Origin: Pseudarthrobacter chlorophenolicus A6
GTDB lineage: Bacteria; Actinomycetota; Actinomycetes; Actinomycetales; Micrococcaceae
NCBI RefSeq assembly: GCF_000022025.1
Contig: NC_011886.1
Span: 1,436,980-1,500,979, forward strand
Direction: 5' to 3'
DNA length: 64,000 nt
Shown: positions 37,615 through 64,000 of the stretch, piece after piece
Numbering within the stretch: position 1 is the stretch's first letter
How the letters are laid out: each line of letters opens with the position of its first letter
Program-made: the position numbers and the translations under genes
Notes under the pieces: generated by a model
Database searches by the model: none
What the model was told of the DNA's origin: nothing
What the model saw: the letters and a program-made list of their open reading frames with translations, nothing else

Positions 37615-40600
37615 ATGAAGTTTCGCGGACGAGCGCGCGCAAAAGCTGCTGCTGCGCCCCGGCGCCGGCCCTTTTTCCAGTCCCCCCTTTTCAGCACCTC
37701 CGCCATGGGTCTTGCCCTCGCCGCCCTCGTTGTTGGCGCCGTCGTCTATCCGGGGTTTAAGACCACTGAGGTGGAGTTGAATGACGGTGGTGTGTGGGTG
37801 GTGTCGAAGTCCAAGAATGCGGTGGGGCGGTTGAATTATCCGTCGCGTGTGTTGGATGGGGCGGTGACTCCGGCGTCGTCGACGTTTGATATTTTGCAGG
37901 ATGCCGGTGAGGTGTTTGTTGATGATGAGTCTGGTTCGACGTTGAATCAGGTGTCGCCGGCGAATATGCGTTTGGGTGGGGATAAGCAGTTGCCGGGGGC
38001 TGCGGATGTGAGTTTTGGGTCGTCGGTGTTGTCGGTGACGGATGCGGCGTCGGGCAAGGTGTGGGCGGTGTCGCCGTCGACGGTGAATGGTTTTGATGAG
38101 GAAGCGTCGGAGCCGGTGTTGGTGGGGTCTGAGGGTACGGTGTCGGCGGTGGGTGCTGATGATCGTATTTATTCGGCGGATCCGAAGGCCGGGACGGTGA
38201 CGGTGACCGGTGTTGATGCCAATGGTGTGGTGGTGTCTTCGGATGCTGAGTCGTGGTCTGAGTTGAAGGGTGCGGGGGACCTGCAGATTACGGTGGTGGG
38301 GGACCGGCCGGTGGTGTTGGATGCTGCGGCGGGGAGTTTGTTTTTGCCTGGTGGTAAGCGGTTGCAGTTGGCTGATGCGCGGGATGCGAAGTTGCAGCAG
38401 GGTGGTCCGGGCAGTGATTTTGTGGCGATTGCGACGCAGAAGGCGTTGTTGAAGCAGCCGTTGGATGGTGGGACGGCGAAGACGGTGTCGTTTGGTGGTG
38501 AGGGTGTTCCTGCGGCTCCGGTGCAGTTGGGTGGGTGTGTGCATGCTGCGTGGTCGGGGGCGAATAAGTATGTCCGTGATTGTGTGAATGATGCTGATGA
38601 TAAGAACGTGGATGTGCCCAAGGCGAGTGCGTCGCCGTCGTATGTCTTTCGGGTGAACCGGGACCTGGTGGTCCTCAATGATGTGAATTCCGGGAATGTG
38701 TGGCTGGTGAACCAGAACATGCAGCTGGTCAACAACTGGGACGACGTCATCCCGCCCAAGGAAACCTCGGACGACGCCGATAAGGACTCCGCCGACGAAG
38801 TCCAGCAGACAGTCCTCCCGGACCGCACCAAACCCAACAGCCCGCCCGTCGCCCAGCCGGACAGCTACGGCGTCCGCGCCGGCAAGACCACCATCCTCCC
38901 GGTCCTGGACAATGACACGGACCCCGACGGTGACATCCTGACAGTGCGCCAGCCCGACAACATCCGCCTCGGCACGTTATCGACGATCTACGGCAGCACG
39001 GGCTTCCAGGTGGCTGTTCCCGCCGACAAGACCGGCACGGAAACCTTCAAATACACGGTGGACGACGGCCGTGGGCTCTCCGCCACCGCCGAAGTCTCGC
39101 TGCGCGTTGTCCCGCTGACGGAAAACACGGCACCGGCGCAAAAGCCGAACCGTGACACCACCATGGTGGTCCAGCAGGGCAAATCAGTCACCCGGAACAT
39201 CCTTACGGACTGGATCGACCCCGACGGCGACGACCTCTACGCCACCTCGGTCTCCAGTCCCGACCCCCTTGACCAGGTCCGCATCCGCCCCGACGGGCAG
39301 CTCTCCTTCCAGGACAGCGGCACCTCGCCGGGCCGCAAGGTCCTCACCGTGGGCATCTCCGATGGCCAGGCCACCACCGAAGGCCGGATCACTGTCGACG
39401 TCCGCCCCGCAGGAGCCCTCCCGCCCATCGCCAACGCAGACCATGTGGTGGCAGTGGCCGGTGCTCCGACGGTGATCGCACCACTGAAGAACGACATCGA
39501 CCCCCAGGGCGGCGCGCTCCGCCTCGCCCAGGTGACCGCTGACGAGCAGTCCAGGGCGGTCATCGGCGCCGACCAGCAGACCTTCAGCTTCACGTCCGAC
39601 GTGCCTGGACCGCACTACGTGGAGTACCTGGTGACCAACGGGCCCGCCAGTGCAGTTCAACTGGTCCGCGTCGACGTGGTGGCCGGCAACGACGCCGGAG
39701 CCCCCGTCGCTGTCCGCGACATTGCTTTGCTGCCCACGGGCGGCAGCGTCCTTGTCGATGTGCTCGGCAACGACTCCGACCCCTCCGGCGGTGTCCTGGT
39801 GGTCCAGTCGGTAACCGCCGACGGCTCCCTTCCGGTCAGCGTGTCCGTCCTGGACCACTCGGTGGTCCGGATCACCGACCTCCGTGCCGAAGGCCAGCTG
39901 ACGCTGAAGTACACCATCTCCAACGGCCGGTCTTCAGCGACAGGCGAGATCGCCGTCGTGGTGGTCCCGGCGCCGACAAAACTGCAGGCACCCCAGGCCA
40001 AGCCCGACGAAGCAACCGTCCGGGCCGGTGACGTGGTCTCCATCCCAGTGCTCGATAACGACACCGATCCCAACGGCGGCAAGCTGACCCTGGTGCCCGA
40101 GCTGGCCCAGGTCCCGGACGAAGCCGACGGACGGACCTTCGTGGCCGGGGACCAGCTGCGGTTCATCGCCGGCTCCGAGGCCAAAACCGTCTACGCAATC
40201 TACAAAGTCCGCAACGAGTCCGGCCAGGTGGACTCCCAACAGGTGACCATCCGCATCCTGGCGCGCGACGACGAGCGGAACAGCCGCCCCGAACCGCGCA
40301 ACCTCACCGGGCGCGTGGTCGCGGGCATGACCGTCAAGATCCCCGTCCCCTTGGACGGCATCGACGCCGACGGCGACTCGGTGCAGCTGATGGGAATCGA
40401 CAAGGCGGCGGGCATGGGCACGGCAACCGTCCGCGACGGTTACCTCGAGTACACCGCCGCGGGCGACGCCGCCGGGACCGACACCTTTTCGTATCGCGTC
40501 CGCGACCGGATTGGCGCCGAAAACACCGGCACCGTGATTGTGGGCGTTGCACCGCCGGAAGCCATCAACCAGAACCCGATTGCCGTGGACGACGCCGTGG

Positions 40601-43600
40601 ACGTCAGGCCGGGCAGGAACGTCGCCGTTGATGCCCTGGCCAATGATTCGGACCCCGACGGCGATCCCGTCTCCCTGCTGACCGACGGTTTCGAAGTCCG
40701 GCCCGAGCTGAACGTCGAAGTGGCTGACGGCGCCAAAGTACTCTTCACCGCGCCCTCGGTGGAAGGCAACGAGAGCATCCGGTACCGCATCCAGGACGAC
40801 AAGAAGGCGCAGGCCAGCGCCGTCATCCGGGTCCGGGTCAGCGCGGACGCGGAACTGAAGCGTCCCATTGCCAAGGACGACAGGGTCACCCTGGCCGAAA
40901 CCCTGGGTAAGACGGCCATCGACGTACCGGTCCTGAAGAACGACTCCGACCCCGACGGGGTGGCCTCCGAGCTGCAGATCAGCCTTCCGGACGGCAACCC
41001 CAATGCCCGCGTGGGCGGCTCAGGGAACGTGGTAGTCAACCTCACGCCCGAAGACCAGCTCATCCCGTATACGGTGACCGACACCGATGGCCTCACCGCA
41101 ACGGCCGTGATCTGGGTACCGGGCCAGGGAGCGCAGTACCCCACGCTGTCCATTACCGAAACGGTGGAGGTCATGGCCGGCAAGGAAATCACCCTGGACC
41201 TTGACGACTACGTCAGGGTGCGGGACGGCCGCCGGCCCAAGATCAGCGTTGCCGACTCCGTCAAGGTCCTGGGCGCCGCCCCGGACAACGTGATCGTCGG
41301 AGAGGGCGAAGGCCTCCGCTACGCGGCGCGGCCCGGCTACGCGGGGCCGGGCTCCATCACCTTCGAAGTCACCGACGGCTCGGGGCCCGACGATCCCGAC
41401 GGGCTGAAATCGACCCTGGTCATCATGACCAACGTGATCCCGGACCCTGACGAGGCCAACACTCCGCCCACGTTCCGCGGCGCATCCCTTGACATTCCCA
41501 AGACGGAAACTGCAACCCTGGACCTTGGTCCCCTCGCGGCCGACGTGGACGAGCGGGACCAAGGTAACCTCACGTTCGCCCTCGAGGGCCCGCCGCCCCC
41601 GGGCTTCAGCGCGAAGCTCGACGGCACGGTACTCAGCGTCAGCGCGGAAAACTCCGTGGGAGTCGGCGTGACGGGCAATATCCAGGCCACCGTGACCGAC
41701 GGACGCTCGCCCGCGGTGACGGCCACCATCCAGGTGCGGCATGTGGCCTCCAACCGGCCCATGCCGGTCGCCAATGACGACGTGGTGGAGAAAGCCAACG
41801 CTGGCCGTGCCGAGACGGTCAACGTCCTGGCCAACGACGTCAACCCCTTCAGCGATACCCCGCTGAAGATCGTGGGCACCAGCGTCGAAACAGGTTCGGC
41901 CCAGGGCCAGCCCACTATTGACGGCGACTCGATCACCATCACCCCTGCAGACGGATTCAAGGGTGTCATGGTGGTCCGCTACACCATCGCCGACAAGACC
42001 GGTGACCTTTCCCGCCAGGTGGACGGCCGGGTCCGCCTCACGGTGCGCAGTGAACCCGATGCGCCGTCCGCCCCCTCGGCGACCGACGTCCGCAGCCGCA
42101 CGGCCGTGCTCAAGTGGGCGCCGCCGTCGGATAATGGAGCACCCATCACCGAATACACGGTGGAATCCAACAATGGATTCCAGCAGAAGTGCCCCACCAC
42201 CACCTGCACCCTCTCCGGCCTGACCAACAACGTGAAGTACGTCTTCACCGTCAAGGCAACCAACGAGGTGGGGGAGTCGCAGCCGTCACCGCAGTCGAAC
42301 GAAATCCGGCCCGATGAGAAGCCCTCGCCACCGGAAGCACCCAGTGTCAAAGCCGGCGACAAGAACATGGTCATCAACTGGCCCGCTGCGCGGACGGAAG
42401 GCTCCCCGGTCAAGCACTACAACCTGGAGATCTCGCCTCCGCCCGCCAACGGTGTTGCCGTCAAGAACGAGGTGGCAGGCCTCAACTACACGTGGACCGG
42501 GCTGACCAACGGCGTGAAGTACAAGGTGCGCGCGCAGGCCGTCAACGAACTCGGCCCCTCCGACTGGGGTACATATTCCGCCGAAGACAACCCGGCCGGC
42601 GTACCGGCGGCCCCCGCCGCACCCACCTCCTCCGTGGCATCGTCAGTGGGAACCCAGAACCAGCTGCGGGTGAACTGGGCTGAACCCAACACCAACGGTG
42701 ACGCCATCAGCGCCTACTACGTCACGATGTCCGGCGGCGGCAGGGCGGACCAGACACAGACCATCCCAGGAACGGTCCGCTCCGCAAACTTCACGGCGGA
42801 CAACTCCGAAGCGGCCTACACTTTCACCGTGCAGGCCGAGAACAAAGCGGGCAAGGGCGCAGTCAGCCCGCCGTCAGCTCCCCGCCGTGCCACCGGAAAG
42901 CTTGGGCAGGTTTCCGGCGTCAACGCCACTCCGGCCAACACCGGCGGTGCCGGCCGGTCCGTCACGGTCGACTTCCGGCGGCTGACGGCGGCTGAACGGA
43001 ACGGCTCTGCCGAGAACGAGGTCAGCTACAGTTACAACGCCAGCAATGGTTCCAGCGGCCCCATCAGCCCGGGCCAGACCATCGGCGGCTTCGCCAACGG
43101 CGCCCAGGTGAGCATCACTGTCATTGCCAATTCCTCTGTGGCCCCGAGCTCCAATGCCAGCGCCCCGGCGTCGGCAACGCCGTACGGGTCCCCGGGCACA
43201 CCGTCCGCGTCAGGACAGGACGGCGGCGTCAACGACCAGTCCGTTACGCTTCGCTGGTCCTCGCCATCCACGGCAACAAACGACGTCGCGAGCACCAGGA
43301 TCAGGATCAACGGCGGCGGCTGGGAGAACGTGGCCCCTTCAGGGAGCCGGACCATCAATACCGGTGGGTGGCAGCAGAGCCGCACCATCGAGGTCCAGAC
43401 CCTGAACTCCGTAGGGACCGGAAGCGGTATCGCCTCAGCCAGGGCGACGTCCGGTAAGCAGGGATTGTGGGAGACCCGGATCAAGACTTCGGACCCCGAC
43501 TTCGAGCGGACTTGCACCTACACCAGGGGCGGCTCGAATTACCGGCCCAATCCCTACTTCACCTGCGATGGGGTCAGCGGCAACAATCCGCCGTGGTTCT

Positions 43601-43785
43601 ACAAGTCCAGCCAGGACCGCATCATGGTGGCCTGCTACATCGACCAGGACGACAATTGGTCCGGTAACGGCATCCTTCGCTGGTGGCGGGTTGAATCCGG
43701 TTCGGCACGCAACGTGGGCCGCTACGTCATCGCCGGACACACCACCCTTCCGGACCCCGCAGGGCTCGGAGCGCCCCCATGCTGA
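37615..43785 (+). CDS. Giant single-pass surface protein 1: probable beta-propeller, ~11 Ig-like repeats, FN3 domains
   Basis: The 2,056-residue protein starts at ATG 37615 after GGGGGGAA. It has a basic cytoplasmic N-terminus, one membrane helix (~31-45), and a huge extracellular part. Residues 45-378 form a repeat-rich domain resembling a PQQ/WD-type propeller. About eleven Ig/cadherin-like repeats follow (~410-1480), marked by motifs such as LDNDTDPDGD, LKNDSDPDG and LANDVNPF. FN3 domains run from ~1480 to 1760 or beyond (ITEYTVESNNGF, LSGLTNNVKYVF). The tail has several Cys. Residues 45-378 are encoded by DNA nearly identical to the next gene and by unusual codons. It probably forms an adhesive or structural fibre. 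The neighbouring MoxR/kinase/FHA operon suggests regulated assembly. Confidence 0.8.
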   Translation: MKFRGRARAKAAAAPRRRPFFQSPLFSTSAMGLALAALVVGAVVYPGFKTTEVELNDGGVWVVSKSKNAVGRLNYPSRVLDGAVTPASSTFDILQDAGEVFVDDESGSTLNQVSPANMRLGGDKQLPGAADVSFGSSVLSVTDAASGKVWAVSPSTVNGFDEEASEPVLVGSEGTVSAVGADDRIYSADPKAGTVTVTGVDANGVVVSSDAESWSELKGAGDLQITVVGDRPVVLDAAAGSLFLPGGKRLQLADARDAKLQQGGPGSDFVAIATQKALLKQPLDGGTAKTVSFGGEGVPAAPVQLGGCVHAAWSGANKYVRDCVNDADDKNVDVPKASASPSYVFRVNRDLVVLNDVNSGNVWLVNQNMQLVNNWDDVIPPKETSDDADKDSADEVQQTVLPDRTKPNSPPVAQPDSYGVRAGKTTILPVLDNDTDPDGDILTVRQPDNIRLGTLSTIYGSTGFQVAVPADKTGTETFKYTVDDGRGLSATAEVSLRVVPLTENTAPAQKPNRDTTMVVQQGKSVTRNILTDWIDPDGDDLYATSVSSPDPLDQVRIRPDGQLSFQDSGTSPGRKVLTVGISDGQATTEGRITVDVRPAGALPPIANADHVVAVAGAPTVIAPLKNDIDPQGGALRLAQVTADEQSRAVIGADQQTFSFTSDVPGPHYVEYLVTNGPASAVQLVRVDVVAGNDAGAPVAVRDIALLPTGGSVLVDVLGNDSDPSGGVLVVQSVTADGSLPVSVSVLDHSVVRITDLRAEGQLTLKYTISNGRSSATGEIAVVVVPAPTKLQAPQAKPDEATVRAGDVVSIPVLDNDTDPNGGKLTLVPELAQVPDEADGRTFVAGDQLRFIAGSEAKTVYAIYKVRNESGQVDSQQVTIRILARDDERNSRPEPRNLTGRVVAGMTVKIPVPLDGIDADGDSVQLMGIDKAAGMGTATVRDGYLEYTAAGDAAGTDTFSYRVRDRIGAENTGTVIVGVAPPEAINQNPIAVDDAVDVRPGRNVAVDALANDSDPDGDPVSLLTDGFEVRPELNVEVADGAKVLFTAPSVEGNESIRYRIQDDKKAQASAVIRVRVSADAELKRPIAKDDRVTLAETLGKTAIDVPVLKNDSDPDGVASELQISLPDGNPNARVGGSGNVVVNLTPEDQLIPYTVTDTDGLTATAVIWVPGQGAQYPTLSITETVEVMAGKEITLDLDDYVRVRDGRRPKISVADSVKVLGAAPDNVIVGEGEGLRYAARPGYAGPGSITFEVTDGSGPDDPDGLKSTLVIMTNVIPDPDEANTPPTFRGASLDIPKTETATLDLGPLAADVDERDQGNLTFALEGPPPPGFSAKLDGTVLSVSAENSVGVGVTGNIQATVTDGRSPAVTATIQVRHVASNRPMPVANDDVVEKANAGRAETVNVLANDVNPFSDTPLKIVGTSVETGSAQGQPTIDGDSITITPADGFKGVMVVRYTIADKTGDLSRQVDGRVRLTVRSEPDAPSAPSATDVRSRTAVLKWAPPSDNGAPITEYTVESNNGFQQKCPTTTCTLSGLTNNVKYVFTVKATNEVGESQPSPQSNEIRPDEKPSPPEAPSVKAGDKNMVINWPAARTEGSPVKHYNLEISPPPANGVAVKNEVAGLNYTWTGLTNGVKYKVRAQAVNELGPSDWGTYSAEDNPAGVPAAPAAPTSSVASSVGTQNQLRVNWAEPNTNGDAISAYYVTMSGGGRADQTQTIPGTVRSANFTADNSEAAYTFTVQAENKAGKGAVSPPSAPRRATGKLGQVSGVNATPANTGGAGRSVTVDFRRLTAAERNGSAENEVSYSYNASNGSSGPISPGQTIGGFANGAQVSITVIANSSVAPSSNASAPASATPYGSPGTPSASGQDGGVNDQSVTLRWSSPSTATNDVASTRIRINGGGWENVAPSGSRTINTGGWQQSRTIEVQTLNSVGTGSGIASARATSGKQGLWETRIKTSDPDFERTCTYTRGGSNYRPNPYFTCDGVSGNNPPWFYKSSQDRIMVACYIDQDDNWSGNGILRWWRVESGSARNVGRYVIAGHTTLPDPAGLGAPPC
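37746..38748 (+). repeat. 1,003-bp near-perfect direct repeat, copy 1
   Basis: Compared line by line with 44056-45058 (offset 6,310) there is one mismatch, C38646 versus G44956. Identity stops sharply at both ends. In the first 44 codons after 37771, 29 end in G, 13 in T, 2 in C and none in A; the flanking codons mostly end in C. Confidence 0.95.
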
Positions 43786-43882
43786 CCCGCCAAAATCATG
43801 AAGCCGCAGGTCAGCGCCGGGGGCACCTCTACCCATCGCGGACCCTTGCACCGTTGGGTAGGCTAACGCGGGGAACAGAGAG

Positions 43883-43899
43883 CCCGGTACCGGGTTTTT
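43883..43899 (+). terminator. Short palindrome followed by five T, possible terminator or attenuator
   Basis: CCCGGTACCGGG followed by TTTTT lies in the 163-base gap between the two giant genes. The stem is short, so termination would be partial. The second gene starts 50 bases later. Confidence 0.4.
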
Positions 43900-43948
43900 G
43901 GGGATTTCGGCCGGGGGGCCGCCGCACAACTGAGGGAAACAAATCGCT

Positions 43949-46900
43949 GTGACAAGTCTGCTGGGGAAACTTGGGCTCAAACGGCGCCACAAGAAGATCG
44001 TCACCGGTACAGCCTTCGCCGCTGCCGTGGCCGTCGTGGCGACCGGCGCCGTGCTCTATCCGGGGTTTAAGACCACTGAGGTGGAGTTGAATGACGGTGG
44101 TGTGTGGGTGGTGTCGAAGTCCAAGAATGCGGTGGGGCGGTTGAATTATCCGTCGCGTGTGTTGGATGGGGCGGTGACTCCGGCGTCGTCGACGTTTGAT
44201 ATTTTGCAGGATGCCGGTGAGGTGTTTGTTGATGATGAGTCTGGTTCGACGTTGAATCAGGTGTCGCCGGCGAATATGCGTTTGGGTGGGGATAAGCAGT
44301 TGCCGGGGGCTGCGGATGTGAGTTTTGGGTCGTCGGTGTTGTCGGTGACGGATGCGGCGTCGGGCAAGGTGTGGGCGGTGTCGCCGTCGACGGTGAATGG
44401 TTTTGATGAGGAAGCGTCGGAGCCGGTGTTGGTGGGGTCTGAGGGTACGGTGTCGGCGGTGGGTGCTGATGATCGTATTTATTCGGCGGATCCGAAGGCC
44501 GGGACGGTGACGGTGACCGGTGTTGATGCCAATGGTGTGGTGGTGTCTTCGGATGCTGAGTCGTGGTCTGAGTTGAAGGGTGCGGGGGACCTGCAGATTA
44601 CGGTGGTGGGGGACCGGCCGGTGGTGTTGGATGCTGCGGCGGGGAGTTTGTTTTTGCCTGGTGGTAAGCGGTTGCAGTTGGCTGATGCGCGGGATGCGAA
44701 GTTGCAGCAGGGTGGTCCGGGCAGTGATTTTGTGGCGATTGCGACGCAGAAGGCGTTGTTGAAGCAGCCGTTGGATGGTGGGACGGCGAAGACGGTGTCG
44801 TTTGGTGGTGAGGGTGTTCCTGCGGCTCCGGTGCAGTTGGGTGGGTGTGTGCATGCTGCGTGGTCGGGGGCGAATAAGTATGTCCGTGATTGTGTGAATG
44901 ATGCTGATGATAAGAACGTGGATGTGCCCAAGGCGAGTGCGTCGCCGTCGTATGTGTTTCGGGTGAACCGGGACCTGGTGGTCCTCAATGATGTGAATTC
45001 CGGGAATGTGTGGCTGGTGAACCAGAACATGCAGCTGGTCAACAACTGGGACGACGTCGTCCCGCCGAAGAACGAATCCGACGAGCAGGACCAGGAGTCC
45101 GCGGATATCAACACCATCAACGTGTTGCCGGACCGCACCAAACCGAACCGTCCGCCGGAAACCAAGCCCGACGTCGTCGGCGTCCGTCCGGGCCGCACCA
45201 CCATCCTGAGCGTCCTGGACAATGATTCCGATCCCGACGGCGACGTCCTCACCGCCGGGCTCCAGGGCAACCCGCCGAAGGCAGGGACGCTGGAGAACAT
45301 CTACGGCGGCACCGCCTTCCAGATTTCCGTGCCGGCCGACGCCAGGCCCGGCACGGAGACCTTCAGCTACTCGGCGTCCGACGGCCGCGGCCTCTCCGCC
45401 ACCGGACAGGTCACCCTCAACGTGGTGGGCCCGGACCAGAACAAGCCACCGCAGTTCAAACGCGGCGAGAACACCACCATGCTGGTGGAACAGGGCAAGA
45501 CCGTGAGCCAGAACATTCTGACGGACTGGGTGGACCCCGACGGCGATGACCTGGTGCTCCTCGACGCCAAGGCCGACAACGAGCAGGACCAGGTGAAGGT
45601 CCGCCGTGACGGCCTGCTCACTTTCCAGGACTCCGGCGCCACCTCCGGCAAAAAGAACGTTGAGGTGACCATCTGGGATGGCCGCGACACCGTCACCGGA
45701 AAGGTGGTCATCAACGTGCAGCCGCCGGGTGCCCTCGCACCGGTAGTCAACGCTGACCATGTCACAGCCGTAGTGGGCCAGGACCTGGTGATCTCGCCGC
45801 TGAAGAATGACGTGGACCCCAACGGCGGCGCGCTCCGCCTCGCCCAGGTGGAAGCGAACGGGCCCGCCGATCTCGGCCCCGTGACCGACGGCGGAACCTT
45901 CACGTTCCGCAGCACCACCCCCGGCCCCGTCTACCTCACATACATCGCCAGCAATGGCCCGCAGAGCAGCCAGGGCCTGATCCGCGTGGACGTCGAATCC
46001 GGTGACGATCCCGGCGACCCCGTCGCTGTCCACGATGTCGCCCTGATGCCCACCGGCGGCAGCGTCCTGCTGGACCCGCTGGCAAACGACTCCGACCCCT
46101 CCGGCGGCGTCTTGGTGCTGCAATCCGTGAAGCTTCCGGAAAACGCCACCGTCTCAGTCAGCGTGATCAACCACAGCGTCCTGCGCATCACGGACATCCT
46201 CGGAACCAAGGACCCGATCCTCTTCGAATACACCATGTCCAACGGCAAGAAGTCGGCCACAGGTTCCGTCTCCGTGGTACCCGTCCCGGCACCGGCCGTG
46301 GTGGAAGCACCCCAGCCCAAGCCGGACGAGGTCAATGTCCGCGTCAACGACGTGGTCACCATTCCCGTCCTGGACAACGACACGCACCCGCAGGGCCAGG
46401 AGCTGACCGTCGATCCGGTGCTCCCGCAGGGTGTGGACCCGGTCGACGGCAAAAGCTTCGTCTCCGAAAACACCCTCCGGTTCATCGCCGGCAGCCAGCC
46501 CAAGACGGTCCGCGCCATCTACAATGCGGTGGACCCGCAGGGCCAAAAGAGCGCCGCCGCCGTCACCATCCACATCCTCCCGCTCGAAGGCGCGGAGAAT
46601 TCCCGCCCGCAGCCGCGCAACCTCACGGCCCGCGTGGTGGCGGCCGGCACCGTCCGCATTCCGGTGCCGCTGGACGGCATCGATCCCGACGGCGACTCGG
46701 TCCAGCTGACCGGCATCGACAGCACGCCTGCCATGGGTACGGCCACCGTGGGCAGCAACTTCATCGACTTCACGGCTGCCGGAGACGGCGCCGGGACCGA
46801 TACCTTCCGCTACAAGGTGGTGGACCGGCAGGGTGCCGTCAATACGGGCACCGTCACCGTGGGCATTGCACCGCGCGGCGAAATCAACCAGAAGCCCACT

Positions 46901-49900
46901 CCCGTGGACGACGAGGTGCGGGTCCGCCCCGGCCGCCAGATCGCCGTCGACGCCACCGGCAACGACACCGATCCCGACGGCGACCAGATCCGCATCCTCA
47001 CCGACGGCATCGAGGCTGATCCTGCCCTCCAGGCCACCGTGAGCAAGACCAGCGGACGGGTCATCCTGACCGCCCCCAACGAGGCCGGGACCGTCAACGT
47101 CCGGTACACCGTGGCCGATGACCGGGACGCCCGGGCACAGGCCACCATCCGCGTGGTGGTGGACCCGGAGGTCCCGCTCAAGGCACCCATCGCCCGTGAC
47201 GACCGTGTGACATCAGCCCAGACCATGGGCAAGACCGCCGTGGACGTTCCCGTCCTGAAGAACGATGAAGACCCCGACGGCGTGGGCGAAAACCTCAAGA
47301 TCAGTACTGAGGCAACCACGGCCCGGCCCGGCGCTGAAGGCAACATGATCGTTGACCTCACCGAGCAGCCGCAGCTCATCCCGTACACCGTGGAGGACGT
47401 TGACGGCCAGAAGTCCACCGCCATCATCTGGGTGCCGGGCCTCGGCCAGCAGGTTCCCACTCTGGCAAAGGACGAGGTCCTGGAAGTGGTGGCGGGACAG
47501 ACCGTCAATGTTGACCTGGACGAATGGGTCAAGGTCCGGGAAGGCCGCTCGCCGCGCCTGACGCAGGCGGACCGGATCAAGCTCATCGGAGCCGACGGCA
47601 GCGACCCCGTCACCGGTGACGGCACGGGACTGAAGTACACCGCAGGCACTGACTACGTGGGTCCGGGTTCACTGACCTTCGAAGTCACCGACGGCACCGG
47701 ACCGGACGATCCCGCCGGCCTGAAGTCGACGCTCAGCATCCGCACCAAGGTCCTTCCGGACCCCAACAAGAACAACCCGCCTGAACTCCTGGGCGCGAAC
47801 GTCGAGGTGCCCATGGGCGACTCGGCAAGCATCGACCTCGGGAGGCTGACCTCGGACCCCGACGGGGACGACGTGGACAACATGAAGTACGAGCTGGTGG
47901 GCGGTGGTGCCGCCGGCTTCAACGCGAGCGTGGACGGCAGGAACCTCAAAGTCTCCGCCGCGGACTCCAGCCGGGCCGGCACCGCCGGTGCCGTGCAGGT
48001 CAAGGCCAGGGACCCGCGCGGCCTGGAAGCCACGGCCACGTTCCAGCTGTCCGTGACGGCATCCAACCGGCCCAAACCGGTAGCTAACGACGACGTTGAA
48101 CCTAACGCCGCCGCCGGCAAGCCCGTCACCATCAATGTCCTGGCCAACGACGCCAACCCGTTCCCCGAGACGGCGCTGAAGATCATTGCCGCGGCTACCG
48201 AGACCGGCAGCGGCAACGTTGAAGTGAACGGCGATTCGGTGACGGTCACACCCGCCCCCGGCTTCACCGGCACCATGGTGGTCACCTACACGGTGGAAGA
48301 CAAGACCCAGGACGCATCGCGGCACGCCACGGCACGCGTCCGGCTTACGGTGAAGGACAAGCCGGCGGCCCCCACTACGCCGCAGGCGCAAAGCGTGGGG
48401 GACCAGACGGCGCTGCTGACCTGGGCCGCTCCCGCGGACCGCGGTTCACCCATCACCAAGTACACCGTGTACGGCGAGGGCGGATTCAAACAGGACTGCC
48501 CGGCCAATACCTGCACGCTGAACGGGCTGGTCAACAACACGAAGTACCACTTCCAGGTCACCGCCACCAACGAGTTCGGCGATTCGGACCGTTCGCCGGC
48601 TTCGGCCGAAGTACGGCCGGACGTCAAGCCCGACACCCCGCTGGCGCCGTCGCTGAAGTTTGGCGACAAGGAACTGTCCATCAACTGGACTGCTCCTGCC
48701 AGCAAGGGTTCGCCGGTAAAGTCCTACGACCTGGAGATCTCCCCGCCGCCCGCGGGGCAGAACGCCCAGATCCAGAACCTGACCGCAGTCAGCTATGTCT
48801 GGAAGGGCCTGCAGAACGGCGTGTCCTACAAGGTGCGGGTCCTGGCGCGGAACGACGCCAAGGAACCGTCCGAGTGGAGCCCGTACTCCGCGGCTGAAGT
48901 GCCGGCCGGTGTGCCGGCCACCCCGGCAGCACCCACGGCCGCCCAGGCGGCGTCCCTGGGGTCGCAGAGCCAGCTGAAGGTCAGCTGGGCCGCGCCGAAC
49001 AACAACGGTGACGCCGTCTCTGCCTACACCCTCACCACCCTCCGGGGCGGTGCGGTGGTGGCCACCCAGCAGGTGGCCGGCACCTCGCAGAACGTGACAG
49101 TGGACAACTCCGAGGCCAACTACACCTTCACGGTCTCCGCCACCAACAAGGCGGGAACCAGCGCCACCAGCGGACAGTCGGCGGCCATCCGGGCGGTGGG
49201 CAAGCCCGGCATCGTTGGGACTCCGACGGCGACGCTGGTGGACACCGGTGGAAACGGCGGCAAGATCGACGTGAGGTTCCCGGTGCTGAGCGATGCCCAG
49301 CGCAACGGGTCCACCCCGCAGGAAATCACCTACAGGTACAGCCTGACCTCAGGCGGCGGCAGCGGCAGCATCGCTGCCGGCGGCGGGACGGTTGCCGCCG
49401 CCAATGGCACGCCTACCTCGGTGGTGGTCTGGGCGGTCTCGTCCCGCAGTTCCACCGCCGGTGACGCCAGCGCTCCGTCCAACCAGGTGAATCCGTACGG
49501 CCTGGCCTTTGCTCCTAACGTGAACGGCAGCAAGAGCAGCGGCGAGGGTGACAAGACAGTGTCCTGGACCTGGAACCAGCCGGACGGCAATGGCCGCGCC
49601 GTCACGGGATACCAGTACAGCCTGGACGGCGGGGGATGGCAGGACACCAACCAGCGCTCCTTCTCCAAGACGGTCGGCTTCAGCGAAACCCACACCCTTC
49701 GCGTTCGGGCCATCAGCGGCGGCCAGCCGGGCCGGATCGGCAGCGATACGTCCCGCAGCGGCGCCGAGCCGCCGCCCCCGGTGCCCACGTCGTGGAGCAT
49801 CACTGCCACCCCGACCCGCAGCTGCACGGAGCCCCGCAAGGGTACGGACAGCTTTGTGGCCGGCAACCCGTCGCAGTGCAACGGGGCAGGCAAATGGCTG

Positions 49901-50071: not shown

Positions 50072-50091
50072 CGCACCAGCTCAACGCAAAA

Positions 50092-50120
50092 GGCGGGACC
50101 CGGGCTAGCCGGGTCCCGCC
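50092..50120 (+). terminator. Hairpin without T-run between the giant gene and moxR
   Basis: A perfect 12-bp stem (GGCGGGACCCGG and complement) encloses a 5-base loop GCTAG. It begins 21 bases after the stop and ends 48 bases before moxR. Lacking a T-run, it may attenuate transcription or stabilise the upstream message rather than end it fully. Confidence 0.5.
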
Positions 50121-55098: not shown

Positions 55099-56816
55099 CC
55101 CCCAATGCCGAGCGATGCCCGCGCTGCCAGCAGAACATCCGCACGGGCGCCGCTTTCTGCACCTCCTGCGGGGCACCGCTGCCCAACCGGTCGGCACGGA
55201 GCCTACGTAACCAGGAGCGGGCTCCCGAAACCGGAGCCGGCCCTTACCCCGGACTCCAGACCGTCGCCGGCTCCGCGCCCTACCCGGGGGCGGACGTCCG
55301 GGCAGTCCCGGTTGCCGCGCACCGGCCGCCGATTCCCGGTACTATCCCGGTAGTACAAATGCCCCAGGCAACTTCTGCCGCGGGCATCGCGAACGCGGCA
55401 GCGGGGCAGGGGAGCGCCGCGGGTCCGGCAGGGGCGTCCGCGCCAGGGGGAGGAACAGGAATGGCAGGAAACCTTCAGCTTGTCCCGGCAACCGCGGGCA
55501 AGCGGCTCGGGGCTGCCGTGGTGGACTGGCTGTTCCCGCTGGCGGTCCTGGTGGTGACGTTCGCCATTGGCTTCGCAGGGATCACCCGCACCCGCAGCGG
55601 CGGTTTCATCATTTACGACACCGCCTCCCTGGTGCTGTTCGGCGGCATCGGACTGGGCATCACGCTGGTCTACGCAGCCGTGCTGACAGGCCTGGAAGCC
55701 CGGACGGGCAAAACGCCCGGCAACCTCCTGATGGGCATCCGCAGCACCGACAATGACGGCTACGCGCCCGGCGCCGGCGGCGTGTTCGTGCGCGGACTGC
55801 TGACCGGTGCCGGCATCCTGCTGACCATCATCGGAGCAGTCCTGGTGGTGGTCTTCAAGTGGTTCGACGCCGCCTTCTTCATCCTGGGGCCGCTGCTCCT
55901 GGCGGCGGCCGTCTGGGCCGTTCTCGTAGTGGTTTCAAGCACCTGGGACAAGGACGGGCAACTGCGCGGCTGGCACGACAATGCCGCCAAGACGCTCGTT
56001 TTTGACGTCAAGGCAGGCCGTGACCCCATCACCACAGGCGGCATCCAGGGCCCCTACAGCTTCGCGCCCCTGGACCTGCCTCCTGTCCAGCCGGTGCTCT
56101 CGCCCGTCGCCGGTGCCCGCGCGCCCCAGGTCATCGCCCCCCAGGCTCCGGCCGGAGCAGCACAGCAGGCGCAGGTGCCGACCGCGCCGGGTCAGCAGCC
56201 CGCCCAGCACGCGCCCGCGGCGCCCGCTGCAGCGCCGGTCCAGCCCCACCCGGCACGGGCCATCCAGCCTGATGGCCGGACCATCCCAGCACAGACCGTG
56301 TCCTACACCTCGCCCTCGTCCTTCGCACCGCCGGGGACTCCGGCGCCGGACGCCGCTCCCGCACCGCCCGCAGCATGGCAGGCCGGGCAGCCGTTCGCCG
56401 GGCAGCAGTCTTCGGGGCAGCCACACGTGGACGACGACGTCGAACGCACCCAGGTGCGCCCCGGCACCGCCGGCCCGGCGCCTGTCGCCGTGCTGCGGAT
56501 CAGGCTCGACGACGGCCGCGACTTCCAGCTCGACCGCAGCGTCCTGGTGGGCCGCAACCCCGTGGGCTCCGCCGGCGAACAGCATGCCCAGCTCCTCGCC
56601 GTCGACGACCCCGGACGGTCCATCTCCAAGACCCACCTGCACGTCCTGACCGACGGGGCGGGGATCTGGGTGACCGACCGGAACTCCACCAACGGCAGTG
56701 CCGTGACCACGCCCGACGGACTCCGCACGCCCCTTGCGGCCGGTGTCCCGACTTTTGTATCCCCCGGTTCCAGCGTCCACTTTGGCGACCGGACCTTTTA
56801 CCTAGGACAGGCATGA
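55095..56816 (+). CDS. Zinc-ribbon, RDD and FHA domain membrane protein
   Basis: The 573-residue protein has three parts. A zinc ribbon at ~7-30 contains the two pairs CPRC and CTSC. An RDD membrane domain at ~130-310 begins GKRLGAAVVDWLFPLAVLVV and contains ARTGKTPGNLLMGIRSTD. After an Ala/Pro/Gln-rich linker comes an FHA domain at ~465-573 (VLVGRNPVG, SISKTHLHV, DRNSTNGSAV). The FHA domain keeps the Arg and Ser/His-type phosphothreonine contacts, so it should bind a phosphorylated partner, probably a substrate of the kinase encoded three genes downstream. The GTG start overlaps the previous stop. Confidence 0.87.
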   Translation: MTPNAERCPRCQQNIRTGAAFCTSCGAPLPNRSARSLRNQERAPETGAGPYPGLQTVAGSAPYPGADVRAVPVAAHRPPIPGTIPVVQMPQATSAAGIANAAAGQGSAAGPAGASAPGGGTGMAGNLQLVPATAGKRLGAAVVDWLFPLAVLVVTFAIGFAGITRTRSGGFIIYDTASLVLFGGIGLGITLVYAAVLTGLEARTGKTPGNLLMGIRSTDNDGYAPGAGGVFVRGLLTGAGILLTIIGAVLVVVFKWFDAAFFILGPLLLAAAVWAVLVVVSSTWDKDGQLRGWHDNAAKTLVFDVKAGRDPITTGGIQGPYSFAPLDLPPVQPVLSPVAGARAPQVIAPQAPAGAAQQAQVPTAPGQQPAQHAPAAPAAAPVQPHPARAIQPDGRTIPAQTVSYTSPSSFAPPGTPAPDAAPAPPAAWQAGQPFAGQQSSGQPHVDDDVERTQVRPGTAGPAPVAVLRIRLDDGRDFQLDRSVLVGRNPVGSAGEQHAQLLAVDDPGRSISKTHLHVLTDGAGIWVTDRNSTNGSAVTTPDGLRTPLAAGVPTFVSPGSSVHFGDRTFYLGQA

Positions 56817-57784
56817 ACCAACAGCCCGCCAGTGTTCCCACCACCACGCAGCCGGGCCCTGGCCTGAGCCTCACCTGCGGCTACGGAACGGACCGGGGAC
56901 TCCGCCGCGAGCTGAATGAGGATTCCTTCATCGCGTCGGACCCGGTCTTCGCCGTTGCCGACGGCATGGGCGGCCATGAGGCCGGCGAGATTGCCAGCGG
57001 CATGTGCGTCAGGACCCTGGCAGCGATTCCGCAGCTGTCCACGGGGGACCGGAGCGTCACGGCCGCGGTCCTGCAGCAGTACCTGCTGCGCGCGGACAAC
57101 TCCATCAGGGAAGCCACGGGTGCCCGGGCGGGAACCACGCTGACCGGAGCGGTGGTGGTGGAGCAGATGGGCATGCCGTACTGGCTGGTGATGAACATCG
57201 GCGACTCCCGCACCTACCGCCTCAGCCAGGGCCGGTTCGAGCAAATCAGCGTGGACCACTCGGAAGTCCAGGAACTCGTGGACGCCGGCGAAATCACGCC
57301 CCAGCAGGCCACGGTGCATCCCCGCCGCCATGTGGTCACCAGGGCGCTGGGCACCGGGGACGAAACCGAGGCCGACTACTGGCTGCTTCCGGTGGAGGAG
57401 GGGGACCGGGTCATGGTCTGCTCCGACGGCCTCACCTCCGAACTGACGGACGAGCACATCCACCGCATCCTCAGCACGGCCGGCCACCCGCAGGACGCCG
57501 TCGACGCCCTTATCCAGGCCGCGCTGCGCAGCGGCGGGCGGGACAACATCACAGTGATTGTGGTGGACGCCCGCAACGTCCTGAACGACGCCGGCGCTGC
57601 CACTACGGCTCCACGGCGGGATCCGTCCGCTGAAGACGAGGACACGTTGCCCCGCGGACAGGCAGCGCAGGCCACAACCCAGCCTCTTCCGCAACAGCAG
57701 GACAACGCAGTGCAGGAAAAGGCGGCCGGGCACGAACCCGCTGCAGGCCAGGATCCCGACGACGGCACCGAGGCCCCGCGATGA
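56813..57784 (+). CDS. PP2C family Ser/Thr phosphatase
   Basis: The 323-residue cytoplasmic phosphatase starts at ATG 56813, overlapping the preceding stop; the longer open frame upstream is a shadow. Metal-binding motifs are intact: RRELNEDSFIASD near residue 27, VADGMGGHEAGEIASGM near 47, MNIGDSRTYRL near 128, CSDGLTSELTD near 203, and GGRDNITVIVVD near 244. The C-terminal ~65 residues are a disordered Gln/Ala/Glu-rich tail. It should reverse phosphorylation by the kinase at 59871-61679. The FHA gene overlaps its stop. Confidence 0.93.
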   Translation: MNQQPASVPTTTQPGPGLSLTCGYGTDRGLRRELNEDSFIASDPVFAVADGMGGHEAGEIASGMCVRTLAAIPQLSTGDRSVTAAVLQQYLLRADNSIREATGARAGTTLTGAVVVEQMGMPYWLVMNIGDSRTYRLSQGRFEQISVDHSEVQELVDAGEITPQQATVHPRRHVVTRALGTGDETEADYWLLPVEEGDRVMVCSDGLTSELTDEHIHRILSTAGHPQDAVDALIQAALRSGGRDNITVIVVDARNVLNDAGAATTAPRRDPSAEDEDTLPRGQAAQATTQPLPQQQDNAVQEKAAGHEPAAGQDPDDGTEAPR

Positions 57785-59870
57785 CCGGCACCAGCTACGT
57801 CCCCGGCACCTGGCTGGGCATCGTCCGTTCCCACACGGCTGTCATCCTCGGACCCGATACGCCGCCCGCCCTCGCTGATTCCGTATGGAACCTCATTGCC
57901 GGGAAGACCGAAGTCTACGAAGTCCTGCAGGCCATCACCGGCAGCTCCGGCGGCAACCTGTCCCGCATTCCGCCGTTCGCCATCCTGGACTTTTCCGGGC
58001 CGCTGCGGGTGTTCCTCCGGGGTGGGCTCGAACTCTCTGTCGAAACACCCGAGGGGCCCGCGGAGCTGAACGGCCGCGACGTCACCACCTGGAGCGAACG
58101 CAGCTTTGCCATTCCCGGCGCCTGCACCCTGATGATCCCGGGCGCAGGCGAAACCGGGCAGCCCGAGCTCCGGCTGGGCGAGGGCATGGTCCTGCTGCAG
58201 GCGATCCGCCTGGGTGCTGATGCCGGGCAGGGCGCACTGGAAGCTCCAAGGACTGCTGCTGTCCCCGACGGTGGTGGCGTCCCAGCCGGCACGGCAGCCG
58301 GTGCGGCAACTCCCGTGGCGGCTGAACCGCAGACCGCCGCGGATGCTGAGGCCGAGCCTGCCGCTGCGGGCACTCCGGTGGCGGCGGTTGCCGTCGATTC
58401 GTCCGGTACCGCTGAAGTCCTGCCGGAGGCCTCCAGCGCAAGTGATGCTGCGGCCGGCGCGGCCGCTGATCCCGGCGTTGCGGACGCCGGAGATACGGCG
58501 CTGCCGGAAACGGCCACCGCGCCGGGCCATGCGGAGGTTTCAGTCGAAACCGTGTACGCCGTCCTGGACGAGGACGGCGAATATGCCGGGCACGGCGGCA
58601 CGCAGCACGCCGGTTCAGGCGAAGCCGCCGCTGACAATGAGACTGCCGACGACGACGCAGCAGGTACTGATTCTGCTCCGAATGGCCCCACCGACGACGG
58701 TGCAGCGGACAACGCCTCGGCGGAAACCGGCGGCCCGGACGCGGAAGCCGCCGGATTGCACGTGGACGGCGACGCGGACCCTGTCCCCGGGACGGCAGTT
58801 CCCGGGGCCGCTGACGTGCTTGCGGCCATTGACCTGACCAGCTCCTATGACCACCTGTGGGAGCGGACGGTCATGCGGAACATCGAGGACGCGGCGGTCC
58901 GCGAGGAACCGGCCGACGACGAGCACGGGTCCGCACCCGCCCACGAGGCCGCGGCCCCGGAGGCTGCCATCGAAGCCGGCGCTGAAGAGCAGCAAGCACC
59001 GGAGCACCCGCTGCCGCACAACGAAGCGGACGGCGCTGGCATCCAGGACGGTGCAGGCCTTCCTCCTGCCACAGCACCCAAGCCGGCCACCGGCCTGCTC
59101 ATCGAGTCGGTGCCGTGGCGGACCGGGGGAGCGGGGAACGCGCAAGCACCTGCCCCGGAGCCGTTCACCCCGGCCCCGGCTTCGGCCGGGACGCCGCCTG
59201 GAGCGCCACCGGCGTTCGGAGCGCCCACGCCGGGGCCGCAGCCGGGAACCGCCCAGCCCGCCAGCTACCCTGCGGCACCCGGGACGGGGCCATCGGCCAC
59301 CGACTTTGACGATGACCATGACGGCCAGACGGTCATGAAAAGCAGCCTCCCCACCGGCCAGCAGGCAACCGCCACGCCGGGCGGGCCGGGCCCGGACGGC
59401 CCAGCACCGGCCGGAGGTCCGCTGGTGTTGGCCCGGGTGTGCCCGCAGGGCCATGCGAACCCGCCCATCCGCTCGGCCTGCACCGTCTGCGGAGCGCCCC
59501 TGCCCCAGGACGCGGTGCAGGTGGGCCGTCCCCGCCTGGGCCGGATGCGGCTGTCCACGGGCGAACTGCTGGACCTGGACCAGTCACTGGTCATCGGCCG
59601 CCAGCCTTCTGTTTCACGCGTCCAGGGCGGCGGGATGCCACGCCTGGTCCAGGTGCCCAGCCCCGGCGGCGACATCTCAAGGTCCCATGTGGAGGTCCGG
59701 CTGGAAGGGTGGCACGTCATGCTGTGCGACCTTAAGGCAACCAATGGCACTGTCCTGGTGCGGGAAGGCCAGTCCCCGCGGCGCCTGGCCCAGAACGAGA
59801 TGGCCATCCTGCTGGACGGTGATATCGCCGAGTTGGGCGATAACATCTCGCTGCGTTTTGAGGAGATTCC

Positions 59871-59874
<4 letters not shown>
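57781..59874 (+). CDS. Zinc-ribbon and FHA domain protein with a long acidic linker
   Basis: Of 697 residues, ~1-145 form an N-terminal domain I do not recognise (GTWLGIVRSHTAVILGPDTP, then SFAIPGACTLMIPGAGET). About 150-545 are a low-complexity Ala/Asp/Glu/Pro linker, probably disordered and a likely phosphorylation target. A zinc ribbon at ~550-578 (RVCPQGHANPP, CTVCGAPLP) precedes an FHA domain at ~590-695 (SLVIGRQPSV, DISRSHVEVRLEG, DLKATNGTVL). It has no membrane helix, so it is presumably a cytoplasmic adaptor. It lies between phosphatase and kinase genes with four-base overlaps on both sides. Confidence 0.85.
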
Positions 59875-61679
<1,805 letters not shown>

Positions 61680-61764
61680 CGGCCGGCACGCGTGCCTGCC
61701 AGTCCGTTTTGCCGGCAAGAACGCCGGCCGCATTAACACTTACGCTCTTGAGGAGGCACAGAAT

Positions 61765-62469
61765 ATGGGGGATCTAGCAATAGATTTCTGTGGTGAATGG
61801 TACGAGCCCTCGGATGAGGACGTCTTCAACATCGGCCGCGAGGGCGACCTTGAAGTGGACGACAATCCGTACCTGCACCGGCAGTTCCTGCAGGTTGCCC
61901 GCTACGACGGCATCTGGTGGCTCAGCAACGTGGGGGGCATGCTGTCCGCCACGGTGGCTGACGCGTCCGGCGGGATGCAGGCCTGGCTGGCGCCGGGCGC
62001 CCGGATCCCGCTGGTCTTCAGCCACACCAACATCATCTTCACGGCCGGGCCCACCACCTACGAGTTCGCCGTCCACCTGAAGACCCCGTCCTTCCGGCAG
62101 GAAGCCAGGGACGGTGACAGCAGCGGCGACACCACCATCGGCCCGGTGGTGTTCACCGACTCCCAGAAGGCACTGATCGTGGCCCTGGCGGAGCCCATGC
62201 TGCGGCGCGAGGGCACCGGCTTCAGCGCCATCCCGTCGTCCGCTGCCGCGGCGAAGACCCTCGGCTGGGCGCTGACCAGGTTCAACCGCAAACTCGACAA
62301 CGTCTGCGACAAACTCGACCGCGTGGGCGTGGTGGGCCTGCGCGGCGGCGGCGGCAAGCTCGCCACCAACCGGCGTGCCCGCCTGGTGGAGCACGCCGTC
62401 ACGTCCCACCTGGTGACCCCCGATGACCTGTACCTGCTGGAAAAGATGAGGGGCGTGGACGAAGGATGA
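61765..62469 (+). CDS. Degenerate FHA-like protein with a C-terminal helical domain
   Basis: The 234-residue cytoplasmic protein starts at ATG 61765, preceded by GAGGAGG; it follows the kinase after 85 bases, the largest gap in this operon since moxR. Residues ~15-110 look like an FHA beta-sandwich (VFNIGREGDLEVDDNPYLHR), but the SxxH motif is changed to YLHRQF, so phosphothreonine binding is doubtful. The C-terminal half (~130-234; KALIVALAEPMLRREGTG, AKTLGWALTRFNRKLDNV) is helical and could be a winged helix. I recognise no named family. Its stop overlaps the EssC-like gene, so the two are translationally coupled. Confidence 0.75.
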   Translation: MGDLAIDFCGEWYEPSDEDVFNIGREGDLEVDDNPYLHRQFLQVARYDGIWWLSNVGGMLSATVADASGGMQAWLAPGARIPLVFSHTNIIFTAGPTTYEFAVHLKTPSFRQEARDGDSSGDTTIGPVVFTDSQKALIVALAEPMLRREGTGFSAIPSSAAAAKTLGWALTRFNRKLDNVCDKLDRVGVVGLRGGGGKLATNRRARLVEHAVTSHLVTPDDLYLLEKMRGVDEG

Positions 62470-64000
62470 GAATCCGGCTGACACTCCGCCGGGACCCGGC
62501 GGAAACCAAGGACCTGGCCGTCACCGTGGACGGCTTGGCCACGGTGGCGGACATTGCCACCGTGCTCTGGGCTGCGGACCCGGACCGGAAGGGACGCCCC
62601 GCACCGGACAACCTGTCCCTGCGCATCGATGAGGCCTTCGTTGGCGGCGGCATCAGCGGCAACGTCCTGGCCAGGGAGGACAACCTCCTGGAGTCCGGCC
62701 TGCGGCCGGGTTCGGTGGTCTCGCTGGCCCAGGTCAGCGACCAGTTCCATGAAGCCGGTGCCGGACGCGGTCCTGCCGCGGCCACCCTGCGGGTGCTGTC
62801 CGGGCCCGACGTCGGCAAGGAATTTTCGCTGCCCACCGGCACCAGCTACATCGGCCGGGACCGGGACGTGGACATCCGGCTCACCGACCCCCTGACCTCC
62901 AAGCGACACGCCCGCATCACCGTGGCCGAGGGCGTCGAAATCGTTGACACCAACTCCGCCAACGGCCTGCTCATGGATGGCCTGCCGGTGACCCGTGCCC
63001 GGCTAAACTCGTCCGACACCGTCACCCTGGGCGACACCACCGTCACCGTGGTTCCACTGGGCCACAACCGGGCGGCAGCACCGACGTCGCCCCTGGTGGA
63101 CTTTAACCGTTCGCCCCGGGTGGTTCCGCGGTTCGAGGAACCCAAGCGCGTGGTCCCGTCCGGCCCCAAGCGGCCGGAAGACCACCCCTTCCCCTACATC
63201 ATGCTGATTGCCCCGCTGATGATGGGCGCAGTCATCTTCGCCGTCACCCGCAACCCGCTGTCCGTGATCTTCATGATGATGATGCCGCTGTTCATCATCG
63301 GCCACTACGTGGACCAAAAGATGCGCAACAGGAAGCAGCAGAAGGAAGGCCACAAGCACTTCCGTGCGTCGATGGCAGCCTTCCGGGAGGACATCACCGA
63401 GCTGCAGAAGGTGGAGCGTGCCGTCCGGCTGCAGGAAGCGCCGTCCGTCAGCGACACCGTGGACGCGATCTACAAGCTCGGCCCGCTGCTGTGGACGCAC
63501 CGCCCCGAGCACAAAACCTTCCTGGGGCTGCGGTTCGGGCTGGGCACCGCTCCTTCCCGGGTCCGGCTCGAAGAACCGTCCAACAACGACACCGAGGTGC
63601 AGTACGCCCGCGAAATCCAGGACTGCCTGAAACAGTTCCGGGAAATCGAAGGCGTCCCCATCGTCTCGCAGCTGCGCACCTCCGGGTCCCTGGGCATCGC
63701 CGGCGCCCGCGGCCTGGTGGACGACGTGGCCCGCGGCATCGTCCTGCAGCTGGTGGGCCTCCACTCGCCCGCCGAAGTGGTCCTCACAGCCATCACCTCG
63801 GCGCAGTCCCGGGAGCGCTGGGACTGGCTGCAGTGGTTGCCGCACGTCGGCTCCGGCCACAGCCCACTGTCCGGAGACCACCTGGCCGCCGGGTCCGCCG
63901 GCGGCTCATCGCTGCTGGCCCGGCTTGAAGACCTGCTCGACGCGCGGGAGGCCGCCGTCAAGCGGCAGGCGCCCGAGCTGCGCCAGGAGATGGACCCCGC
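62466..64000 (+). CDS. EssC-like FtsK/SpoIIIE-family protein, N-terminal part (3' truncated)
   Basis: ATG 62466 overlaps the previous stop; 511 codons are visible before the window ends. Residues ~1-90 form a ubiquitin-like or FHA-like N-terminal domain. An FHA domain follows at ~103-198 (TSYIGRDRDVDIRL, LTSKRHARITV, DTNSANGLLMDG). Two adjacent membrane helices span ~243-285 (IMLIAPLMMGAVIFAV, VIFMMMMPLFIIGHYV). A soluble domain typical of EssC/EccC pre-ATPase regions comes next (ELQKVERAVRLQEAPS, LGPLLWTHRPEHKTFLGLRF). The ATPase domains would lie beyond the edge. FHA followed by two helices matches Firmicutes EssC better than mycobacterial EccC. It would be the motor of a type VII-like system. 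Confidence 0.8.
   Translation, partial: MRIRLTLRRDPAETKDLAVTVDGLATVADIATVLWAADPDRKGRPAPDNLSLRIDEAFVGGGISGNVLAREDNLLESGLRPGSVVSLAQVSDQFHEAGAGRGPAAATLRVLSGPDVGKEFSLPTGTSYIGRDRDVDIRLTDPLTSKRHARITVAEGVEIVDTNSANGLLMDGLPVTRARLNSSDTVTLGDTTVTVVPLGHNRAAAPTSPLVDFNRSPRVVPRFEEPKRVVPSGPKRPEDHPFPYIMLIAPLMMGAVIFAVTRNPLSVIFMMMMPLFIIGHYVDQKMRNRKQQKEGHKHFRASMAAFREDITELQKVERAVRLQEAPSVSDTVDAIYKLGPLLWTHRPEHKTFLGLRFGLGTAPSRVRLEEPSNNDTEVQYAREIQDCLKQFREIEGVPIVSQLRTSGSLGIAGARGLVDDVARGIVLQLVGLHSPAEVVLTAITSAQSRERWDWLQWLPHVGSGHSPLSGDHLAAGSAGGSSLLARLEDLLDAREAAVKRQAPELRQEMDP

Follow-up and report, generated by a model that had tools for sequence, protein, structure and literature searches.

The type VII secretion systems (T7SS) named T7SSa (ESX) and T7SSb (Ess) pair an FtsK-type motor with WXG100 substrates, and the threonine-phosphorylation pathway of type VI secretion systems (T6SS) sets a kinase, a phosphatase and an FHA protein around a secretion machine. 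Further T7SS subtypes have been published: T7SSd is built of five parts (TsdA, C, D, H and I, the last with a C-terminal helix), and the phosphothreonine site of the motor FHA domain, lost in T7SSb, is kept in T7SSd and T7SSe (PMC11217815, in its available text). A separate literature deals with the PFNA operon of Bifidobacterium, with gene order pkb2-fn3-aaa-atp-duf58-tgm-prpC-hypothetical-fha, for which a role in adhesion and cytokine sensing has been proposed (PMC8430577, PMC6803598). Here we report on a gene block of Pseudarthrobacter chlorophenolicus A6 that resembles both, lying in a stretch of 64,000 nucleotides (hereafter the window; C3:1436980-1500979 of a 4.98-Mb, three-contig genome, G000). 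Two giant surface proteins with immunoglobulin-like (Ig) and fibronectin type III (FN3) repeats are followed by MoxR, DUF58, transglutaminase (TGase)-fold, zinc-ribbon/RDD/FHA, PP2C, zinc-ribbon-like/FHA, transmembrane kinase and degenerate FHA proteins and by a motor (Table 1). This kinase/FHA/giant/FtsK-type block, first noticed in an initial annotation of the window, was confirmed, and the gene list and positions given there all proved correct by Pfam, hydropathy and sequence reading. We interpret it, with moderate confidence, as a variant, phospho-gated T7SS of Actinomycetota in which the giants would be envelope-spanning arms rather than cargo.

The protein cut by the right edge had been called EssC-like. 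Completed past position 64000 to 1481 aa, it contains FtsK/SpoIIIE ATPase domains (FtsK_SpoIIIE match 8.2e-54), with P-loop motifs in the sequence at about residues 697, 1024 and 1301, the third of which carries R instead of K and is apparently degenerate. Its best NCBIfam match is TIGR03928, EssC (554 bits, 6.5e-166), followed by EccCa (347 bits, 2.5e-103) and EccCb (289 bits), which upholds the EssC-like identity, although all three scores fall below the curated cut-offs (778 bits for EssC). A module of about 95 aa at the N terminus precedes the FHA domain and a helix pair at residues 242-282, and hydropathy also marks residues 425-443; the structural model places a strand-strand-helix-strand-strand region before the FHA domain, which might be ubiquitin-like, and the N terminus gave a weak profile match to eight YukD/EccD domains (P 0.007-0.017, probability 3-4%). 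The motors of P. chlorophenolicus Mor30.16 and Arthrobacter sp. Leaf137 are 99% identical to this one.

The motor FHA fold resembles OdhI and GarA in structure comparison (the VIA-align list covered the FHA part alone), and its phosphothreonine-binding residues GR, SxxH and NG are kept in 17 of 17 aligned sequences, as reported for T7SSd and T7SSe and unlike T7SSb (PMC11217815, available text). Neither the kinase motifs (lysine, HRD, DFG) nor those of PP2C are damaged in the window, and the same holds for nearly all surveyed copies. In these points the sequences support the initial annotation.

As far as the published description in PMC11217815 was available, T7SSd and the block share their occurrence in Actinomycetota, an EssC-type motor with an N-terminal FHA domain and conserved phosphothreonine site, a membrane kinase, a large Ig-like membrane protein and the lack of a separate ubiquitin-like protein. 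By the same description, to which and not to sequences the comparison was made, the membrane Ser/Thr kinase of the window fills a TsdD-like place; the block differs in having PP2C, in lacking a TsdA-like WXG100 gene at the locus, with no TsdH recognised either, and in its giants, whose sole helix is N-terminal, whereas TsdI combines an N-terminal Sec signal with its C-terminal helix. T7SSe likewise has an FHA motor with a conserved phosphothreonine site, a kinase, a PP2C-type phosphatase, a separate FHA protein and an Ig-like giant, but it belongs to Bacillota, has a pair of WXG100 core proteins besides a ubiquitin-like protein, and is described without a MoxR-DUF58-TGase trio (PMC11217815). 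T7SSg counts a beta-propeller protein, TsgL, among its parts, likened to the giants by description, but its motor lacks an FHA domain and it occurs in Acetivibrio and Paenibacillus (PMC11217815). The available text of that paper never mentions transglutaminase, fibronectin, MoxR or DUF58, and the trio is absent from its T7SSd, T7SSe and T7SSg part lists that we examined. Differences from T7SSa are the EccC scores below their cut-offs and the failure to find EccB or EccD in G000; T7SSb is set apart by the EssC score and by a separate YukD/EsaB (PF08817), not found in G000. The T6SS pathway surrounds an unrelated machine, and in the window one FHA domain is fused to the motor itself.

The PFNA operon has genes homologous to the kinase, giant, MoxR, DUF58, TGase-fold and PP2C genes of the window; in its published description, as available, it has no EssC motor and another gene order, the kinase standing first in Bifidobacterium and downstream in our Arthrobacter-group host (PMC8430577, PMC6803598). 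The initial annotation knew of no described system with this set of genes, a claim that needs division: the giant-MoxR-DUF58-TGase-kinase part is that of PFNA (PMC8430577) and the FHA-motor, kinase and Ig-giant part that of T7SSd and T7SSe (PMC11217815), while the junction of both was not found in print. Our search, outside which lay preprints and most subscription journals, returned no paper joining T7SS with PFNA or with MoxR-DUF58-transglutaminase modules.

WXG100 genes and homologues of EccB and EccD had been named among the T7SS components to look for. Of 90 motor-bearing genomes of the order, at least 56 have a WXG100 gene no farther than 6 kb from the motor, a lower bound from which G475 was left out; in the window's genome the related ones are unlinked to the block. 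Five scattered genes have WXG100 matches there (C3:987366, 2904379, 3881937, 4201651 and 4316617), so that a loss of WXG100 from this genome was rejected. The protein at C3:4316617 shares 43% identity with the WXG100 encoded beside the motor in G176; three larger WXG100-matching proteins have heads that likewise match motor-adjacent WXG100s, and the lone C3:987366 gene gave no good match. The alternative that the motor acts on DNA or the cell wall as an FtsK-like ATPase, with the WXG100 genes of its relatives incidental, would suit a genome without a linked WXG100 gene, but the EssC and EccC models fit best while the FtsK model reaches only 49.5 bits, and the adjacency in so many relatives also argues against it; we regard it as very improbable. 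EccB was found neither in G000 nor in ten other genomes searched in the order (it is present in 4 of 80 further motor-bearing genomes), and the YukD/EccD domain (PF08817) had no match in the same eleven.

Two of the large WXG100-matching proteins, L129 (C3:4201651-4203135) and L130 (C3:3881937-3883517), join a WXG100-like head to C-terminal parts of unknown kind, in one of them with a DUF2515 match, and a small gene follows each; judged by their sequences, they are candidate secreted effectors.

Among 59 named Arthrobacter/Pseudarthrobacter loci, 55 keep the row transglutaminase-RDD/FHA-PP2C-FHA-kinase-degenerate FHA-motor unchanged in order and strand, the remaining four (L009, L015, L050, L053) being cut by contig ends, and because of this conserved order the block is not a chance assembly. 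Those 59 loci span TGase to motor, and the giants were checked in other genomes. Close orthologues of the motor (at least 42% identity, near full length) occur in 13 of 246 genomes of the class, its own included, and distant matches are common. Members of the block adjoin the motor in G002, G230, G092, G045, G176, G178 and G239, in some of which the kinase/PP2C/FHA part is moved or inverted, as well as in L170, L171, L174, L175, L176, L177 and L181; the L176 stretch has no kinase or PP2C. A motor without a giant beside it was seen in G148, G117, G138, G168 and G204 (the G168 and G204 stretches are short), and in all five, as in L172, the RDD/FHA match stays at the motor. In another class, G700 holds kinase, degenerate FHA, a 2115-aa giant, MoxR, DUF58, TGase and motor within 19 kb, together with a PP2C gene cut at the edge and a gene resembling the zinc-ribbon/FHA protein.

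Each giant has, according to hydropathy, one helix near its N terminus, and because a short basic tail precedes it, an N-in topology is expected from the positive-inside rule. Behind the helix, structural modelling predicts a beta-propeller, which would sit next to the membrane on its outer side, and Pfam then gives nine or ten Ig repeats, with three FN3 repeats after them. The propeller of giant 2 (about residues 43-371) was modelled with a pTM of 0.79 and a pLDDT of at least 90 at 253 of 391 residues, and propellers such as BamB and NirF fill its Foldseek and VIA-align lists. The two genes share an identical tract of 901 bp in the anchor/propeller region, and beyond residue 410 their DNA identity per 100 codons is 44-71%. 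The giant pair of G390 (a draft assembly; L146/L147) shares an identical tract of 1060 bp, and the longest identical runs are 541 bp in G483, 276 bp in G239 and 125 bp in G487, the last pair being absent from the identity profile; the pairs of G312, G423 and G274 have no exact run of 30 bp or more. This comparison covered the first 4.7-5.5 kb of each gene region and left out the pairs of G002, G261, G377 and G402. Chance or artefact was rejected, since the remainder of the genes is far less alike and the G390 pair behaves likewise. The pattern looks like repeated gene conversion confined to the anchor/propeller domain, which suggests that both giants dock on one shared partner.

The TGase-fold protein of the window has no cysteine anywhere in its sequence. 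At the position that we take to be that of the catalytic cysteine, D, E, A or S was found in all 77 sources and in all 82 aligned rows, among which some loci occur twice, in a set with no cysteine-bearing control; the alignment with TgpA (PDB 6g49) begins just after this position. The His and Asp motifs of the fold are kept in most sources. The protein is thus likely, on these motifs, to be a pseudo-enzyme, and a structural or binding role fits better than that of a cysteine protease, as which its PFNA counterpart has been presumed to act (PMC8430577, in its available text).

In a tree of 51 motors, made with a quick method that left several forks open, the 22 close orthologues group together in a single clade (support 100). 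Outward from it stand G607, then G183 with G078, then G693 and G550, and then G170 and G707. The gene row of G183 and G078 reads WXG100, motor, propeller protein, MoxR, DUF58, TGase, and a propeller protein, MoxR, DUF58 and TGase also lie near the motor in G707. These propeller proteins are linked by BLAST (41% over 360 aa between G183 and G078; E 4e-15 between G183 and G707), and the propeller profile of the window matches those of G078 and G707; hydropathy gives the G183 protein a C-terminal helix. Of 28 loci with distant motors, some of them on short stretches, 23 have a WXG100 match. One of the few with a MoxR trio, G162, sits in another part of the tree, and the interval from its motor to MoxR holds two kinase matches and nothing that matches the propeller; since the distant loci mostly lack the trio, the link of motor with giant or trio appears mainly, not only, in one part of the tree. 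At L235 (G623), next to a kinase gene, a related motor occupies two separate open frames and is probably broken or misassembled.

The motor is not the only one in its genome, an assumption rejected because a second FHA-FtsK protein of about 1400 aa (L226, C3:2721621-2725835) is present, far away on the motor tree. It adjoins polysaccharide-like genes, a similar protein exists in G002, and the WXG100 profile found none in the 20-kb stretch around it. Because of this protein the pairing of motor and WXG100 substrates can only be inferred.

A number of observations weigh against a phospho-gated T7SS with giant arms. At thresholds of E <= 1e-150 for the motor, 1e-10 for the degenerate FHA protein and 1e-20 for the giant, 297 genomes of the order yielded 91, 125 and 176 carriers, respectively. 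Motor and giant occurred together in 82, the motor only in 9, the giant only in 94 and neither in 112, an absent motor possibly hiding a distant one, as in G048, G094 and G106; for motor and degenerate FHA the counts were 74 (both), 17 (motor only), 51 (FHA only) and 155 (neither). In the 68 genomes for which the places of both are listed, the two lay within 35 kb in 42; 13 had them farther apart on the same contig, and another 13 had them on different contigs. By these counts, many genomes carry the giant module away from any close motor orthologue. The row kinase-giant-MoxR-DUF58-TGase is present in two small genomes (L179, L180), probably of Bifidobacteriaceae by size and gene order, one of them also with PP2C, without a motor in the stretch; their gene order is the published PFNA order and their proteins match those of the window at 26-58%. 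The MoxR trio was seen in only 3 of the 28 distant-motor loci. No WXG100 gene was found at the window locus, among the listed genomes of the window's family only 2 of 12 have one at the motor, and the second FHA-FtsK protein could in principle serve WXG100 proteins. Moreover, the compared genomes are related, and p-values overstate their independence.

Much of this would suit two independent neighbouring modules, one of PFNA type for adhesion or the envelope (giants, MoxR-DUF58-TGase, kinase and PP2C) and one T7SS motor module (RDD/FHA, motor and WXG100), co-located for shared regulation only. The genomes with a giant alone, the 13 with both far apart on one contig and the PFNA-like small genomes point that way, as does G267, where 1.7 Mb separate the giant module (L178) from the motor with RDD/FHA (L172). 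Against it, motor and giant lie within 35 kb of each other in 42 of the 55 genomes that carry both on one contig, and their association is met again in different parts of the motor tree as well as in another class. In the window, moreover, a four-base overlap ties the degenerate FHA gene to the motor, and five more are found from DUF58 through kinase; we consider this alternative somewhat unlikely. Of the conditions that would have refuted the initial annotation, a lack of ATPase domains in the edge protein did not hold, and a lack of conservation as a unit held in part, the block being strict in the Arthrobacter group and giving way to two modules in some other families.

The initial annotation had the motor export or assemble the giant fibres. 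Tight linkage in the Arthrobacter group speaks for this, but the topology, which by hydropathy is signal-anchor-like (N-terminal helix with a basic tail), the absence of a WXG100 domain from the giants in Pfam and the giant-bearing genomes without a motor at the threshold used go against it. Simple export of the giants by the motor is thus not supported, and the proposal now seems very improbable.

In the phospho-gated T7SS that we favour, the motor would export WXG100 proteins and WXG100-fused effectors. The kinase, with PP2C acting against it, would phosphorylate a threonine on a partner, which may be the MoxR, DUF58 or TGase-fold protein or the kinase itself; MoxR is the first candidate because Pkb2 phosphorylates MoxR in PFNA (PMC8430577, in its available text). 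Binding of the phosphothreonine by the motor FHA domain would license assembly or opening, by analogy with the T6SS switch. MoxR, DUF58 and the TGase-fold protein may form an AAA+ machine assembling the membrane complex, and the giants would reach the surface by the Sec route, where, like EsaA or TsdI, they would act as a surface sensor or as an arm spanning the envelope.

Table 1. Features of the gene block in the window (positions counted from the first nucleotide of the window)
Feature	Position	Strand	Description and basis
Giant surface protein 1	37615..43785	+	2056 aa; helix at residues 26-44; order N-terminal helix, propeller domain, Big_9 Ig repeats, FN3 repeats; propeller near-identical to giant 2; Pfam, hydropathy
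Identical tract of 901 bp	37745..38645 = 44055..44955	+ / +	Anchor/propeller region of the two giants; exact-match search
Giant surface protein 2	43949..50071	+	2040 aa; architecture as giant 1; Pfam, predicted beta-propeller
MoxR-family AAA+ ATPase	50169..51140	+	AAA_3 1.2e-62
DUF58 membrane protein	51191..52522	+	PF01882 1.7e-12; hydropathy
TgpA-like transglutaminase-fold membrane protein	52519..55098	+	Zero cysteine; Pfam, motif survey
Zinc-ribbon/RDD/FHA membrane protein	55095..56816	+	Pfam; FHA match below its cut-off
PP2C phosphatase	56813..57784	+	Catalytic motifs intact; Pfam, motif survey
Zinc-ribbon-like/FHA protein	57781..59874	+	PF00498; C-terminal FHA with GR, SxxH, NG (sequence)
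Transmembrane Ser/Thr kinase	59871..61679	+	Pkinase 5.2e-41; catalytic motifs intact; one helix, residues 467-485
Degenerate FHA protein	61765..62469	+	Conserved C-terminal domain of unknown fold (alignment)
EssC-like motor, 5' part	62466..64000	+	1481 aa in full; ends 2.9 kb past the window, L005:4891

The junctions had been described as mostly four-base overlaps, which agrees with 6 of 10. The degenerate FHA protein had no Pfam or NCBIfam match, and a DNA-binding domain in it was rejected, the best solved-structure match (E 0.1) being unconvincing. The next gene on the 3' side of the motor is small, of secreted type and frame-broken, and is followed by one that visual reading identified as ligA. 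The small gene (L005:5030-5668) encodes a P/T/S-rich protein with a signal-like start and a C-terminal helix; the break lies in a poly-C run close to its beginning, and in L049, L034 and L008 the frame is open from a start codon, so that phase variation or a sequence error is possible.

More broadly, and only tentatively, the block may represent an undescribed T7SS subtype, widespread in Actinomycetota, that combines a phospho-gated EssC motor, an AAA+ assembly trio of MoxR, DUF58 and cysteine-less TGase fold, and propeller-anchored giant arms, and of which PFNA would be the surface-arm and assembly module kept after loss or separation of the motor. If true, two separate literatures, on T7SS diversity and on the bifidobacterial PFNA operon, would be joined, and the 'transglutaminase' of PFNA is predicted to act without cysteine chemistry. 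The finding raises the questions of whether a kinase opens a T7SS motor through the motor's own FHA domain, and of whether building secretion or surface machines is the still poorly understood role of MoxR-DUF58-TGase modules.

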